From contig JAFEGB010000030.1 in the NCBI GenBank assembly GCA_018240295.1, positions 1 through 52,975 on the forward strand: a stretch of DNA of 52,975 nucleotides, written 5' to 3'. Each line of letters starts with the position of its first letter. Position 1 is the stretch's first letter. The notes under the pieces were generated by a model. That model had not been told where the DNA came from. It ran no database searches and saw only the letters and a list, made by a program, of their open reading frames with translations. The stretch is from Pseudomonadota bacterium (GTDB lineage: Bacteria; Pseudomonadota; Gammaproteobacteria; Competibacterales; Competibacteraceae). A program made the position numbers and the translations under genes. Below, one piece after another: positions 28,607-50,513 of the stretch.

Positions 28607-30403
28607 TTAGCGAACCCGGACCGTGCTCAGTTCCTCGCCATCCGGTCCCATCACGTGCGTCGAGCAGGCGAGACAGGGATCGAAGCTGTGCAGCGTGCGC
28701 AGGATCTCGACCGGCTCGTCGGCACGCGCCACCGGCGTGTTCAGCAGTGCGGCCTCGTAGGCGCCGATGTTGCCCTGCACGTCGCGCGGGCTGGCGTTCC
28801 AGGTGGTCGGCACGACGGCCTGATAGCTTTCGATGCGCCCGTCCTCGATGCGCACCCAGTGGCCGAGCGCGCCGCGCGGGGCTTCGGTGAAGCCGACGCC
28901 CTTCGCCGACTTCGGCCAGGTCGACGGGTCCCACTTCTCGACGTTGGCGGTCGATTCGTCGCCGGCCTTGATGGTTGCGACCAGCTTGTCCTGGAAGTGG
29001 CGCATCTCGGCGGCTGCCCACGAGGCTTCGAGGCCGCGGGCGAGCGTGCGGCCGACGGTCGAGAACAGGGCTTCGAGCGGCAGGCCGAGATCGCGGAGTG
29101 CCTTGTCGACCGGCTCCCTGAACTCGGGGCGGTTCTGCGCGTAGCCGATGATGTAGCGCGCCAGCGGCCCGACCTCGACCGCGTGGCCCTTCCAGCGCGG
29201 CGCCTTGATCCACGAGTACTTGGCGCTTTCGTCGAGGGCCTCGATGCGGGTCTTCGTGCCTTTGGTGTTCGGCCCGAGCGTGAAGTCCGGCTCGGTGACG
29301 CCCTCCCAGGGGTGCCTGCCCTTGCCGGCGCCTTCGGGATAGCGATACCAGCTGTGATCGACGAACTCCTGCACCTCGGCCGGGTCGCGCACGTCGACGT
29401 TCTGGATGTTCCTGAGGTCGCCGCCGATGATCGCGCCGTGCGGGAGCTTGAGGTTCGCGGCCCCGTAGTCGTTGGCCCGCTCCGGAATGTCGCCGTAGGA
29501 CATCACGGCCTTCGAGGACAGGCCGCCGCCGTACGTCCAGTCCTTGTAGAACGAGGCGATGGCCATCAGGTCGGGCAGATAGACCTGATCGATGAACTCG
29601 CGCGTGCGGTCGATGATGCTGCTGACGTGGTTCAGCCGCTCCATGTTGATCGCGCCGACCGCGCCGGTCGTGTGCACGTTGATCGCGCACGGCATGCCGC
29701 CGACCAGCCAGTTCGGATGCGGGTTCTTGCCGCCGTAGATCGTGTGGATCTTGACGATCTCGCGCTGGAAATCGAGGGCTTCGAGGTAATGGGCGACCGC
29801 GAGCAGATCGACCTCGGCCGGCAGCCGGTAGGCCGGGTTGCTCCAGTAGCCGTTCCTGAACAGGCCGAGCTGGCCGCTCTCGACGAACTTCTTCAGCCGC
29901 GTCTGGATGTCGCGGAAATAGCCCGGACTCGACAGCGGCCACGCGGAGATCTTCTGCGCGATCTCGCTGGTCGCCTTCGGATCGGCCTTCAGCGCGTTGA
30001 CCGGGTTGACCCAGTCGAGCGCGTGCAGGTGATAGAAGTGCACGAGGTGGTCGTGCGCCTGCAGCGTCAGCTGCATGAGGTTGCGGATCGAGTTGGCGTT
30101 CTCGGGGATCTGGATGCCGAGCGCATCCTCGACCGCGCGCACCGAGGTCAGCGCGTGCGTGCCGGTGCAGACGCCGCAGATGCGCTCGACGAAGGCCCAG
30201 GCATCGCGCGGATCGCGGCCCTTGAGGATGACCTCCAGACCGCGCCACATCGTGCCGGTCGACACGGCATTGGTGATGACGTTGTTCGCGTCGAGGTTGA
30301 CCTCGCAGCGCATGTGGCCTTCGATGCGCGTCACCGGATCGACGACGACGCGCGTGCCGGCGGCATCGAGCCGGAAACCGTTCGGGGTATTGATGACGGC
30401 CAT
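28607..30403 (-). CDS. hoxG: HoxG/HupL, [NiFe]-hydrogenase large subunit (membrane-bound uptake type)
   Basis: Catalytic subunit of 598 residues that splits H2 at the Ni-Fe site in the periplasm. N-terminal ligand motif RICGVC (C76, C79) and C-terminal DPCLACSTH (C577, C580, H583). A 15-residue tail after H583 ([15 protein letters not shown]) must be cut off by HoxM before export with HoxK. Gas-channel positions are Val (V78) and Leu (L126), as in ordinary energy-converting enzymes, unlike the Ile/Phe pair in HoxC. It begins 2 bases after hoxK. Confidence 0.97.
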
Positions 30404-34808: not shown

Positions 34809-35588
34809 ATGTCCCTCACCCGTCGCCGCTTCCTGAAGTACGCCGCCGCCAGCGCCAGCGCAGCGGCACTCGCCCGCCTGCCGACGGCTTCTGCCGCCAC
34901 GGCCGCGGTGCCGGTCGCTGCCATCGCCCTCGACGGCTTCACGACCTTCGATCCACGCCCGCTGGCCGCCCTGGCCGAGCAGATGTTTCCGGATGGAGCG
35001 GGCAAGGCCCTGACGCTTGCGTGGCGCACGCGCCAGTTCGAGTACACCTGGCTGCGCACGCTGATGAACCGCTACGCGGATTTCTGGCAGGTCACCGGGG
35101 AAGCGCTGGACTTCGCTGCAGCGCAGACGGGCCTGAAGCTCGGCGGTGAACAGCGGGATCGGCTGATGCAGGGCTGGCTGGAACTGCGCGCCTGGCCGGA
35201 TGCGGCTGACGCGCTGCGGGCGCTGAAGGCAGAGGGCCTGCGGCTCGCGTTCCTGTCGAACTTCACGCCGGCGATGCTCGATCGGGCCGTCGCCGGCAGC
35301 GGCCTCGACGGCCTGTTCGACGAGCACCTGAGCACCGATCGCGTGCGCGCCTTCAAGCCCGATCCGCGCGCGTACGCGATGGCTGAGGGTTTCTGGAAGC
35401 TGCCGCGCGAGGCCATCGCATTCGCGGCCTTCGGAGGCTGGGACGCGGCCGGGGCGCGTGCGTACGGCTATCCGACCTTCTGGGTCAACCGCGCCGGCGT
35501 ACCGGCCGAACGGCTCGACACGCTCGCCGATGCCAGCGGTGCAACGCTGACCGAGCTGGCGGCCTGGGTGCGGACGACGCGCGGCTGA
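34809..35588 (+). CDS. Haloacid dehalogenase type II, with Tat signal
   Basis: HAD-superfamily hydrolase of 259 residues, L-2-haloacid dehalogenase type. A Tat signal (TRRRFLKYAAAS) ends near residue 31, so the enzyme is predicted periplasmic, unusual for this family. Motif I ALDGFTTFD has the nucleophile D42; SNFTPAML gives motif II; KPDPRAY gives the motif III Lys; FGGWDAAGARAYG stands for motif IV, where SSNGWDA is typical. The WRTRQFEYTWLRTLM segment is shared with true dehalogenases. The 592-base gap before it holds only the small Cys/His protein. Converges with chaA. Substrate unknown. Confidence 0.85.
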   Translation: MSLTRRRFLKYAAASASAAALARLPTASAATAAVPVAAIALDGFTTFDPRPLAALAEQMFPDGAGKALTLAWRTRQFEYTWLRTLMNRYADFWQVTGEALDFAAAQTGLKLGGEQRDRLMQGWLELRAWPDAADALRALKAEGLRLAFLSNFTPAMLDRAVAGSGLDGLFDEHLSTDRVRAFKPDPRAYAMAEGFWKLPREAIAFAAFGGWDAAGARAYGYPTFWVNRAGVPAERLDTLADASGATLTELAAWVRTTRG

Positions 35589-35603: not shown

Positions 35604-36725
35604 TCAGACCCCGAGCGCCGCCAGCATCAGGAAGGTCAGGAACAGCACGAAGTGCGCCGTGCCCTCGATGGCGTTGGTCTCGCCATCGTGCAGGTTGATG
35701 GTCGCGGCGAGCAGCGTCAGCACCATCATCACCGTCTGCGGGGCGGTCAGCGCCATCTCGATCGGCTGGCCGCTCAGCAGCGCGATGGCCTCGATCACCG
35801 GCACGGTCAGGATCACCGTCGACAGCGAGGCGCCGAGCGCGATGTTGACGACCGGCTGCATGCGGTCTTCGAGAGCGGCGCGCAATGCGGTCATGATCTC
35901 CGGGCTCGCCGAGATCAGCGCGACCAGCATGCCGGGCACGATCACCGGCATGCCGCTGCCGGCGAGGCTCACGTCGATGGTCTTGGCCATCACTTCCGAC
36001 AGTGCCCCGATCAGCACCAGTCCGGTGACCAGCAGTGCCGCCGAGTTGCGCACGGCGGACGGATCGTGTGCGGCTTCGGATTCGGCGTGCAGTTCCTGCG
36101 GTGACTGACCGGCGCGGTGGGCGTAGCGGTAGCTGAAGAAACCGGCGTACTGACCGGTCTGCAGGCGCAGGAACAGCGCATACAGCAGCAGCATGACCAG
36201 GATGTTGAAGATCGAATAAGCCTTCCAGGTCATGTGCGGAATGAACTCGGGCACGATCATCGACACGCCGACCGCGCACAGGATCATGGTCAGATAGGTG
36301 TTGCCGGAATCGACGTTGTAGGCCTGCACGCCATGGCGCAGCCCGCCGAGCAGGGCAGCGAGGCCGAGGATGCCGTTGATGTCGAGCATCAGCGCCGAAT
36401 AGATGGTGTCGCGCACCAGCGTCGGCGAGGGGTTGTGCGACAGCAGGATGGCGAGGATCACGACCTCGACCAGCACGGCGCTGATGGTCAGGATCATCGT
36501 GCCGTAGGGTTCGCCGTAGCGATCGGCCAGGATTTCGGCGTGATGTGCGACCCGCAGGGCGACGCTGAGGATCACGGCGATCAGCACGCCCGATGCGATC
36601 AGCGCCATGCTGCGGCCGCTGTCGATCAGCGTGTGTTCGAGCGGATAGGCGATCAGGATGACGGCGATCGCGCTGAGCAGCGGCTTTTCGCCGCGCAGGA
36701 GAGCGGACAGGGATACGGGCGACAT
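35604..36725 (-). CDS. chaA: Ca2+/H+ antiporter, ChaA/CaxA family
   Basis: Inner-membrane cation/proton antiporter of 373 residues with about eleven hydrophobic helices and the two family repeats: YGEPYGTMILTISAVLVEVVI in the N half and PEIMTALRAALEDRMQPVVNIALG in the C half (c-1 and c-2 motifs with acidic residues in the membrane). A His/Glu-rich loop (about 215-235) separates the halves. It exports Ca2+ or Na+/K+. Single gene; the 317-base gap upstream holds the small-RNA candidate on the other strand. ATG at 36725. Confidence 0.92.
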   Translation of the reverse strand: MSPVSLSALLRGEKPLLSAIAVILIAYPLEHTLIDSGRSMALIASGVLIAVILSVALRVAHHAEILADRYGEPYGTMILTISAVLVEVVILAILLSHNPSPTLVRDTIYSALMLDINGILGLAALLGGLRHGVQAYNVDSGNTYLTMILCAVGVSMIVPEFIPHMTWKAYSIFNILVMLLLYALFLRLQTGQYAGFFSYRYAHRAGQSPQELHAESEAAHDPSAVRNSAALLVTGLVLIGALSEVMAKTIDVSLAGSGMPVIVPGMLVALISASPEIMTALRAALEDRMQPVVNIALGASLSTVILTVPVIEAIALLSGQPIEMALTAPQTVMMVLTLLAATINLHDGETNAIEGTAHFVLFLTFLMLAALGV

Positions 36726-36846
36726 GCGCAGCGCCTTTCGGTCGGGCAGGGGAGGGAAGTGACTGCGCGCGAGTATAGGAGCGGCCCCGGCCGGCCCGCT
36801 GGCGGGAGCCGCTTCCGGAAATTTTGCCCGTCAACCCGGACAACCC

Positions 36847-36875
36847 TTGACGCGCTGCAACATCGCGTCCATATT
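36847..36875 (+). promoter_or_regulatory. Sigma-70-like promoter for the small-RNA candidate
   Basis: TTGACG (36847-36852), 17-base spacer, CATATT (36870-36875). The -35 matches 5 of 6 positions and the -10 matches 4 of 6. The implied start near 36882 falls at the base of the first hairpin of the candidate RNA. The spacer and downstream side carry the TTGCAATGCAACA motif also found at the phasin promoter. Confidence 0.5.
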
Positions 36876-36881
36876 GCAATG

Positions 36882-36950
36882 CAACATCCGCTGCGTCGGG
36901 TGTTACCTCTCCTCCTCCTTTTGGGCCGGTCCTCTTCCGGCCCTTTTTTT
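36882..36950 (+). ncRNA. Candidate small regulatory RNA, about 69 nt, with anti-Shine-Dalgarno CU-rich strand
   Basis: Three parts lie between a promoter and a U-run: a 5' hairpin (AACATCCG, loop CTGCGT, CGGGTGTT; 36883-36904), a single-stranded CU-rich linker ACCTCTCCTCCTCC (36905-36918) complementary to GGAGG ribosome sites, and a terminator hairpin with seven T (36923-36950). This is the usual form of trans-acting sRNAs that block translation. The region has no reading frame of note. It could instead be an attenuated leader of the gene at 37043, about 90 bases on. No homology search was possible. Confidence 0.6.
36923..36950 (+). terminator. Rho-independent terminator of the small-RNA candidate
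   Basis: Stem GGGCCGG / CCGGCCC with loop TCCTCTT, followed directly by seven T. Points in the plus direction. No protein gene ends upstream on this strand (chaA is on the minus strand, and the previous plus gene ends at 35588), so it must serve a short transcript from the gap. Confidence 0.88.
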
Positions 36951-37042
36951 ATGCCCGCCTCCCTGCCCGCCGAGCCCCTGACAACGCTCGCGCTGCCGGC
37001 TACACCCGGGCGGGTCCGTGCGCGCTTGAGGAGCCGATCCCC

Positions 37043-37561
37043 ATGAAGCCAGAGTGTCCCGTGATCTATCTCGCCGGACCCGCCGTGTTCCATCCGGACG
37101 CCGCCGGCATCGGCCGGCGTCTGCGGGCACTGTGCACGGCCGCCGGTTGCGAGGGGCTGTTTCCGCTTGACGCCGAAGTGCCCGGCGACGCCGGGCGCGG
37201 TCCCGCGCAGGCGGCAGCCATCCTGCAAGCCAACCTCGCGCTGCTCGAACGGGCCGATGCCGTGCTGGCCGACTGCACCCCGTTTCGCGGCCCGTCGCTG
37301 GACCCGGGCACGGCGTTCGAGATCGGCTATGCCGTCGCGCGCGGCAAGCCGGTGGCCGGCTGGTCGGAAACGGCCGGGGCCTACCGGCTGCGCGTGGCGC
37401 AGGCGGTCCGCTGCGCATCGGGCTGGCGGGATGCCGGGGGATGGGTGGTCGAGGATTTCGGACTGCCCGACAACCTGATGATCAGCGCGAGCCTCGTGGC
37501 AATGGCGGATGATCCGGCCGGCGCGCTGACGCAACTGCTGGCGCACCTGCGTGCCCGCTGA
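37043..37561 (+). CDS. Nucleoside 2-deoxyribosyltransferase family protein
   Basis: Enzyme of 172 residues that likely transfers or hydrolyses the deoxyribose of nucleosides. Family marks: N-terminal VIYLAGPAVFHPDA, ADAVLADCTPFRGPSLDPGTAFEIGYAVARGKPV with the catalytic Glu in GTAFEIGYA, and a C-terminal LPDNLMISASL helix. ATG at 37043. It converges with the WGR gene, 11 bases away. It is a likely salvage or house-cleaning enzyme; substrate cannot be read from the sequence. Confidence 0.88.
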   Translation: MKPECPVIYLAGPAVFHPDAAGIGRRLRALCTAAGCEGLFPLDAEVPGDAGRGPAQAAAILQANLALLERADAVLADCTPFRGPSLDPGTAFEIGYAVARGKPVAGWSETAGAYRLRVAQAVRCASGWRDAGGWVVEDFGLPDNLMISASLVAMADDPAGALTQLLAHLRAR

Positions 37562-37572
37562 AGCTACCGGGA

Positions 37573-37806
37573 TCAGGCGAGGACTGCGACGATCCGGTAA
37601 CCGTGTCGCTCGCGCCGCCGGGCCAGGGCCTGCAGCAGGCGTCCGGCTTCGGCTGCACCGGTGAGCGGCCGGCATTGCATGCCGCCCCGGGCACTGCGCA
37701 GCGCCCCCCAGCGGCAGGTCAGCGTCAGCTGGCCGAACAGATCCGTTCCGATGCTGGCTTCATACCAGCGATCCCGACTTTCCCAGCGTCTGTAGCAGGA
37801 TTGCAT
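37573..37806 (-). CDS. Stand-alone WGR domain protein
   Basis: Protein of 77 residues that is almost entirely a WGR domain: RWYEASIGTDLFGQLTLTCRWGALRSARGG has the WG(x)R core (CRWGALRSARGG), and the helix AGRLLQALARRRERHGYRIV completes it. WGR domains bind nucleic acids in PARPs and MolR regulators; alone their role is unknown. GGAG ribosome site 6 bases before the ATG. Converges with the deoxyribosyltransferase gene. Confidence 0.8.
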   Translation of the reverse strand: MQSCYRRWESRDRWYEASIGTDLFGQLTLTCRWGALRSARGGMQCRPLTGAAEAGRLLQALARRRERHGYRIVAVLA

Positions 37807-38072
37807 GGCCGGCTCCGGGGGCTGTCGCCGAGGAAAGACATGGATTGTCCATAGAAATCATCAGCATGGAAGAATGCAGGCATTCATGTCGCCATGGAGC
37901 GACAGTTTTGGACAGAAGCCTGCGTGCATTGCAGCATTAAATATCGGCAAGTATATGATCCATACAGAAAAGCTTTGGATGGCACGAATCCTGTCAAAGT
38001 TCCCGGCAGGCCGGTCGATCCGGCCGAGCAGCCAGGCCGGTGTGGCCGGCCGTCATTTGCGGGAGTTCCGAC

Positions 38073-38885
38073 ATGAAAGCCACCGATCTGATCGATGACC
38101 TGAACCGCCGGTTCGCCGACGATGACTATGGCCGGCGGGCGCCGGCGGCCCTGCAGCGCAGCAGCGACGGCGCAGTTGGCAGCTTCCAGGGACTGCGCCT
38201 GTCGACCGGCGTTGAAACCCTGTTCGCGGCCGATGGCGGCATCAGCGGCCATCAGGCCGTGACCGTCGTGCGCGGCCCGCATGGCCGGCCGCTGTCGGCG
38301 TGGGTGCCGTATGCGCTGGCGCTGGATGCACAGGCGATCGGCTGGCTGGATCGGCTGGTGCGTACGCTGCATGTGTTCAACGCCCGTGCGGTGCTGTCGC
38401 TCGGGCGGCTGTGGCTGGCCGTGCATCCGCTGCATCTCGGGGCGATCAGCGGCGAGTTCGGGGCCGTGTTCGCGAATCTGCTGGCACGCATGCGCGTGCA
38501 TCCCTCGCAGATCGTGCTGGAGATCGCCGACGCCGATCGCATGCCGCGCTCGCGGCTGATGCAGGCCTTGTCCGGCTTCCGGACCCACGGTTTCGGCACG
38601 GCCTGCGTGCTGCGCGGCGATGATCCGGGCGCGTTCGAGCAGGTGCTGTCCCTGCATCCGGACGCCGTCAAGCTCTGCCGCAGCCATCTGTATGCGGCAC
38701 GCGCGTCGCTGCTCGGACGCGAGCGCCTGGCAAGGCGGATCGCAGCGATCCGGGCGGCCGGTGCGCATGCCTGGCTGCGCGGTGTCGACGATCTGCCCTC
38801 GACGCGACTTGCCCGCGCGCTCGATGCCGACGGCTGGCAGAGCGGTCTGCTCGACGCCCGCATGCTCGGCGGCCACGGCGGCTGA
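38073..38885 (+). CDS. Degenerate EAL-domain protein
   Basis: Protein of 270 residues with the fold of an EAL phosphodiesterase but without its catalytic residues. The ExLxR position reads ETLFAADGG. The LEITE strand is LEIADADR, the DDFG loop is LRGDDPG, and the PDAVKLCRSHL strand stands where PDxIKxD is expected (Asp to Cys). Such relatives (YdiV-like) bind c-di-GMP or partner proteins without cleaving it. GGGAG ribosome site 8 bases upstream. A TGCATTGCAGCAT motif shared with the phasin promoter lies about 140 bases upstream. Confidence 0.82.
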   Translation: MKATDLIDDLNRRFADDDYGRRAPAALQRSSDGAVGSFQGLRLSTGVETLFAADGGISGHQAVTVVRGPHGRPLSAWVPYALALDAQAIGWLDRLVRTLHVFNARAVLSLGRLWLAVHPLHLGAISGEFGAVFANLLARMRVHPSQIVLEIADADRMPRSRLMQALSGFRTHGFGTACVLRGDDPGAFEQVLSLHPDAVKLCRSHLYAARASLLGRERLARRIAAIRAAGAHAWLRGVDDLPSTRLARALDADGWQSGLLDARMLGGHGG

Positions 38886-50439: not shown

Positions 50440-50485
50440 ATCACGGGGAAAGGAACAGGGTCGGGACAGAAGGCTCAAAAGGATG

Positions 50486-50513
50486 TTGCACTGCAGCATC
50501 GCATGGATATAAT
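50486..50513 (+). promoter_or_regulatory. Phasin promoter with TGCA-type operator candidate
   Basis: TTGCAC (50486-50491), 16-base spacer, perfect TATAAT (50508-50513). The -35 and spacer contain TGCACTGCAGCATC (50487-50500), a near-palindrome like those bound by the PHA regulator PhaR in other proteobacteria. The same core appears at 37925 and, inverted, at 36874. Start near 50520 gives a leader of about 50 bases. Confidence 0.65.

Follow-up and report, generated by a model that had tools for sequence, protein, structure and literature searches.

The window, which is the whole stretch of 52,975 nucleotides (53 kb) that was analyzed, contains a compact set of transcription signals at positions 36847-36950. 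On one side lies a Na/Ca-exchanger gene on the minus strand (35604-36725), which reads away from the element. On the other side, a nucleoside deoxyribosyltransferase gene on the plus strand (37043-37561) begins about 93 bases after the end of the element. A promoter scan identified the −35 box TTGACG (36847-36852) and the −10 box CATATT (36870-36875; TATATT in the P. acidivorans copy), both on the plus strand and separated by 17 nucleotides. This was the sole promoter-like site in the 1-kb region, for which 0.1 were expected in shuffled sequences. The sole terminator-like site of the same region is an intrinsic terminator at 36923-36950 (+), consisting of GGGCCGG-7-CCGGCCC with a 7-bp stem followed by TTTTTTT.

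Between these signals, an RNA of about 70 nt would be transcribed from the plus strand (36881-36950), with the start placed by the spacing from the −10 box and the end by the terminator. Its predicted fold has an energy of −25 kcal/mol (z = −4.6), which none of 200 shuffles reached. Most of the fold consists of two independent hairpins, namely the terminator and a 5′ hairpin of 8 bp with a 6-nt loop (36883-36904, +). Between them the 18-nt CU-rich strand ACCUCUCCUCCUCCUUUU (36905-36922, +) is predicted to be unpaired. This strand is complementary to GGAGG-type ribosome sites and is conserved in the copy at locus L003.

An earlier sequence-only reading had placed promoter, 8-bp 5′ hairpin, CU-rich strand and seven-T terminator in this order at 36847-36950, and all four were recovered in place. 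It had described the 104 bases as free of coding frames; long open reading frames do cross the region (for example 36117-37046 on the plus and 36653-37675 on the minus strand), but these look like shadow frames of GC-rich DNA. The nearest identified upstream gene on the plus strand, encoding a HAD hydrolase, ends at 35588. The terminator therefore serves no neighboring protein gene, as had been proposed.

Copies in the same genome and in relatives

Six sibling copies were found in the genome of the window, two on C286, two nearly identical ones on C107 and one each on C5 and C342. A DNA search of relatives revealed promoter and RNA together in P. acidivorans DSM 23606 (G001) and in G007 at 75% identity; in several others, only the promoter part matched. 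Copies were identified in eight other genomes, many of them as tandem pairs, and units complete with promoter, hairpin, CU core and terminator recur across Competibacteraceae. The complete unit in relatives consists of TTGACGCASTGCARCAT, about 7 bases, TATAYTGCAnYGCAACAT, the hairpin, CCTYCTTTGGTGGTT and a GCCGG-type terminator. Tandem pairs of such complete units are very frequent and are spaced 130-170 bases apart. In a scan of public genomes for the core only, the owners were Candidatus Competibacteraceae and Plasticicumulans.

The 22-nt CU core CTCTCCTCCTCCTTTTGGGCCG is identical between the window copy and P. acidivorans, and CCUCC-type anti-Shine-Dalgarno (anti-SD) cores are retained in nearly all copies. 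The GGTGG half of a second hairpin is absent in the window copy, the C342 copy and the first P. acidivorans copy, which leaves their CU strand open; most siblings retain GGUGG. Pairing of the 5′ hairpin was kept in 25 copies, with two-sided exchanges at three positions (A-T to G-C and C-G to T-A). It was counted directly on the 5′ ends copied from the loci, as the 5′ loops are variable and were misaligned by MAFFT. Hairpin pairing in relatives had been named beforehand as a test on which the RNA could fail, and the pairing proved to be retained with compensatory changes. Together with the complete copies elsewhere and the identical 22-nt strand, this supports the earlier proposal, made from sequence features, of an independently transcribed small RNA gene with a CU-rich anti-SD strand.

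The same comparison bears on a cis-acting role, in which the element would form the 5′ leader of the nucleoside deoxyribosyltransferase gene at 37043 and control it by attenuation at the terminator. The shared strand and the distance of only about 93 bases from terminator to gene start would fit such a leader. However, the homologues adjoin unrelated genes (those flanking the copies differ between P. acidivorans and G007) and occur as tandem complete units, and no antiterminator alternative is evident in a fold dominated by two independent hairpins. The cis-leader interpretation was rejected because the neighbors of the homologues differ, and we consider it highly improbable.

Three further observations concern the copies themselves. 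The C107 copies (L158:714-787 and about 994-1067) lie about 280 bases apart; their 74-nt RNAs are identical and their promoters nearly so, and they represent a recent tandem duplication. A second promoter class for the same sRNA core was found at L073, L077, L078 (for example at about position 162), L098, L140 and in other Competibacteraceae. These promoters show GTTGTTTTTTGCCGAAAAACAACG and a conserved −10 box without a PhaR-type dyad, as well as a long GTGCAGCAGGC...GTCTGCTGCAC hairpin. One copy of this class, at L008, is located just upstream of an apparent RNase P RNA gene.

PhaR-type operators at sRNA and phasin promoters

The promoter TTGACG-17-CATATT of the sequence-only reading is present, but two dyads covering it had been overlooked. 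Both are 17 bp long and of the ATGTTGCA-N-TGCAACAT type, one over the −35 box and spacer and the other over the −10 box and start site. Operator 1, TTGACGCGCTGCAACAT (36847-36863), matches ATGTTGCANTGCAACAT in 12 of 16 positions and reads TTGACGCASTGCARCAT in relatives; it has CGC in place of TGC because it overlaps with TTGACG. Operator 2, ATATTGCAATGCAACAT (36871-36887), matches in 15 of 16 positions and contains the TGC-N3-GCA dyad TGCAATGCA (36875-36883), which overlaps the promoter elements as expected of a PhaR/PhbF operator. Since operator 2 shares sequence with the 5′ arm of the RNA hairpin, conservation of this arm may in part be due to the operator. The spacer of the window copy is 17, and an operator pattern fixed at 18 misses this copy.

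In Herbaspirillum, the PhbF operator motif TG[N]TGC[N]3GCAA has been footprinted, and PhaR of R. eutropha binds the phaP promoter in two places, the start site and a site upstream of −35 (PMC3206438). The dyad of the sRNA promoter fits the PhbF motif, and by sequence the sRNA promoter dyads are of this published PhaR/PhbF operator type. Direct binding of PhaR would be expected at 36847-36887.

The two best dyads of the window, both with 15 of 16 matches, are those in the sRNA promoter (36871) and in a phasin promoter (50483); the third-best is operator 1 at 36847 (12/16), tied with one other site. The phasin operator ATGTTGCACTGCAGCAT (50483-50499) precedes a phasin gene (PF09361; 50571-50885, +), which is presumed to be co-regulated with the sRNA. 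Five phasin-family genes were found in the genome of the window, and four of their promoters carry a dyad with at least 13 of 16 matches. The core TGCWNYGCARCA occurs 67 times in this genome, compared to 6 times for the reversed control. The genome also encodes PhaR (C327:29760-29942) and Hfq, so that PhaR protein and phasins are present together, as in a PhaR/PhbF regulon. Among the seven sRNA copies, five bear the dyad, and C5 and one of the C286 copies (C286b) are without it.

Two other PhaR-type dyads are recorded here. In the window, a dyad with 11 of 16 matches (37921-37937) precedes a promoter-like stretch, TTGCAG-17-TATATG, in front of the EAL-domain gene at 38040-38885 (+), which makes a link between PHB status and c-di-GMP possible. 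Just downstream of phaR (L313, C327, about 29301-29334), two adjacent dyads TGCGTCGCAACATTTGTTGCAGTGCAATAT are located in what is apparently the promoter of the next gene.

The distribution of dyad and regulator was analyzed in other lineages. As the dyad was first noticed in promoters of the sRNA and of phasins, and then tested with a motif published by others, the test in other families is independent. The Rfam family RF02278 was abundant above its threshold in one family only (f108), in 51 of 61 genomes. TGCN3GCA was identified within 140 bases upstream in 27 of 29 RF02278 promoters of this family, compared to 41 of 551 control windows from the same loci (7%; binomial p ~1e-28). PhaR was present in all 28 checked genomes of these carriers.

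For RF02278-like sRNAs across the class, the dyad was found in 8 of 25 copies from PhaR-bearing genomes and in 2 of 39 from genomes lacking PhaR (Fisher p = 0.01). One of the two exceptions is in an 86%-complete genome that is congeneric with a PhaR-bearing one. The other lies off the promoter, as does one match in a PhaR-bearing genome (G179). In the Cardiobacterium/Dichelobacter type and the Halothiobacillaceae, the dyad was present in five of five genomes with PhaR (Dichelobacter, Rappaport, two Cardiobacteriaceae MAGs and G187) and in none of six without (C. hominis, C. valvarum, Wohlfahrtiimonas, Guyparkeria and two Halothiobacillus). The chance of this split is 1 in 462 if the genomes are treated as independent, although they are related. 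Sampling comprised one genome per species including many MAGs, in which absence of phaR may reflect incompleteness. Near phaR in G122 and G245, RF02278-like matches were rejected as sRNAs, since they probably represent the terminators of phasin-like genes.

These data can be weighed against a generic RF02278-like anti-SD sRNA whose dyad would serve some regulator different from PhaR. In the Gammaproteobacteria, many close relatives are preceded by ordinary TTGACA/TATATTAGAAAAT promoters that lack the dyad, which is also missing from the C286b and C5 copies of the window genome. On the other hand, the dyad also occurs on four of the five phasin promoters, fits the footprinted motif, and its presence tracks phaR across genomes; a different regulator is therefore regarded as unlikely. 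Since 17 of 25 copies in PhaR-bearing Gammaproteobacteria as well as C286b and C5 are without the dyad, PhaR control is not universal.

Proposed circuit and possible targets

Based on these sequence features, the element is most probably (at about three chances in four) a multicopy sRNA gene whose product acts in trans and whose expression is controlled by the PHB-sensing repressor PhaR. PhaR is known to be released from its operators when it moves to PHB granules (PMC9049629), so the sRNA would be off without PHB and on during PHB synthesis, along with the phasins. At low PHB levels, PhaR would occupy both dyads (−35/spacer and −10/+1) and block the sRNA promoter. During carbon surplus it would move to nascent PHB granules, and the sRNA would be made together with the phasins once PhaR is gone. 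The exposed CU strand of the ~70-nt RNA could then pair, probably with the help of Hfq, to GGAGG-type ribosome sites. Translation of the targets, most plausibly uptake or catabolic genes or granule proteins, would be lowered, placing a brake on carbon flow. We infer from this that the sRNA would slow uptake, catabolism or growth while carbon is being stored; by analogy, a phasin-limiting role as in MmgR could be an alternative.

The sequence-only reading had pointed to trans-acting proteobacterial sRNAs with CU-rich anti-SD loops that repress many mRNAs; for such repression here, the target scans gave no indication. Across 254 predicted gene starts, a rough scan showed no more pairing with the CU strand than the reversed-strand control, with gene calls being poor in the GC-rich DNA. 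A search for 16-mer complements gave fewer matches than the control, mostly the sRNA genes themselves. A TRAP-type transporter binding-protein gene (L334, about 7358, −) has a ribosome site, GCGAGGAGAAG, that pairs comparatively well with the CU strand and is a weak candidate target.

The missing excess of pairing to ribosome sites in the crude scan would suit a sponge or decoy, whose CU strand would capture other sRNAs or purine-rich RNAs by pairing, or a protein, without blocking ribosome sites. Multicopy sRNAs can serve as sponges. Against this function stand the CCUCC-type cores kept in nearly all copies and the related S17 of B. pertussis, which represses its target directly through single-stranded sites (PMC11722255). 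A sponge or decoy thus appears quite improbable, and the sRNA of the window, judged by its CU strand, probably blocks ribosome sites on other messages.

Comparison with RF02278, MmgR and NgncR sRNAs

At gathering thresholds, no Rfam family matched in the window. The window copy reached 20.5 bits with the RF02278 covariance model (threshold 50) and 18.2 bits with RF00519 (threshold 41; best relatives 24.0 for L003 and 23.8 for L075). As neither threshold was passed, the sRNA was assigned to neither family. RF02278 is nevertheless a consistent sub-threshold match for the siblings, best or near-best for most, and siblings and relatives score between 24 and 35.5 bits. A search for an annotated RF02278 relative on plasmids gave no match. 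In the Gammaproteobacteria sample (L041-L068 and L219-L247), a widespread sRNA CTCCTCCATCCTCCTTTGGTGGTT with a GGCGCGG-type terminator was observed behind TTGACA-N17-TATATTAGAAAAT promoters; these sRNAs are mostly under the RF02278 threshold and are therefore missed by Rfam.

By sequence, the nearest known family is RF02278, comprising the Burkholderia double-hairpin RNAs ncS03, ncS05, ncS27, ncS62 and bdhR1; S17 of B. pertussis is related. Common to both are a short multicopy RNA, a CUCCUCC/CCUCC anti-SD core, a terminator hairpin with U-run and, in one PhaR-bearing family, a PhaR-type dyad on the promoters. In contrast to RF02278, the CU strand of the window copy is unpaired and not presented in the loop of a first UCCACC...GGUGGA hairpin, and there is an extra 5′ hairpin that overlaps the operator.

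The RF02278 RNAs ("Betaproteobacteria toxic sRNA") are expressed in Burkholderia, and overexpression inhibits the growth of E. coli; both their function and their control were stated to be unknown (PMC4603805). Glucose medium raises their levels in B. cenocepacia 4- to 8-fold, an unassigned upstream motif is common to three of the four, and ncS27 overexpression slows growth (PMC5688073). S17 of B. pertussis, as an RNA related to the one in the window, acts on transporters and regulators (PMC11722255). If the RF02278 RNAs and the window sRNA are tied to PhaR, their signal would be PHB status, their expression would be derepressed during carbon storage, and a role in slowing uptake, catabolism or growth at that time could be tested. 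Plasticicumulans, the genus of the window bacterium, stores very large amounts of PHB, which makes these sRNAs candidates for engineering bioplastic yield.

NgncR_162 and NgncR_163 of Neisseria are likewise sibling sRNAs, with a global role in metabolic regulation (PMC9973317). They are comparable to the window sRNA by description. We know of no PhaR control of these RNAs.

In the open-licence literature, no paper was found that places RF02278 or sRNAs in Competibacteraceae under PhaR control, and MmgR of Sinorhizobium meliloti (alpha-r8, RF00519 suhB) was the sole PhaR-repressed sRNA described. MmgR resembles the window sRNA in its 5′ hairpin, CU-rich strand with CCUCC and GGGCCG-type terminator. 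It is linked to PHB (PMC12542648, PMC8401924) and is repressed by PhaR (AniA) through a dyad within its promoter (PMC12542648), the position also taken by the putative operators at 36847-36863 and 36871-36887. MmgR lowers phasin levels post-transcriptionally. It differs in being described from Alphaproteobacteria, in also responding to NtrC, and in having one operator, compared to two putative operators and multiple copies for the window sRNA.

With modest confidence, PhaR control of anti-SD sRNAs may be regarded as an ancient and recurrent circuit, in which the PHB-granule sensor drives a growth-braking class of sRNAs (RF02278, the Competibacteraceae siblings, the Dichelobacter type and, in parallel, MmgR). 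The "toxic small RNAs" would then be the post-transcriptional arm of the carbon-storage response and not toxins. Judged by sequence and analogy, the sRNA of the window is nearer to RF02278 in sequence and works like MmgR in its predicted function, a parallel that suggests either convergence or deep ancestry.
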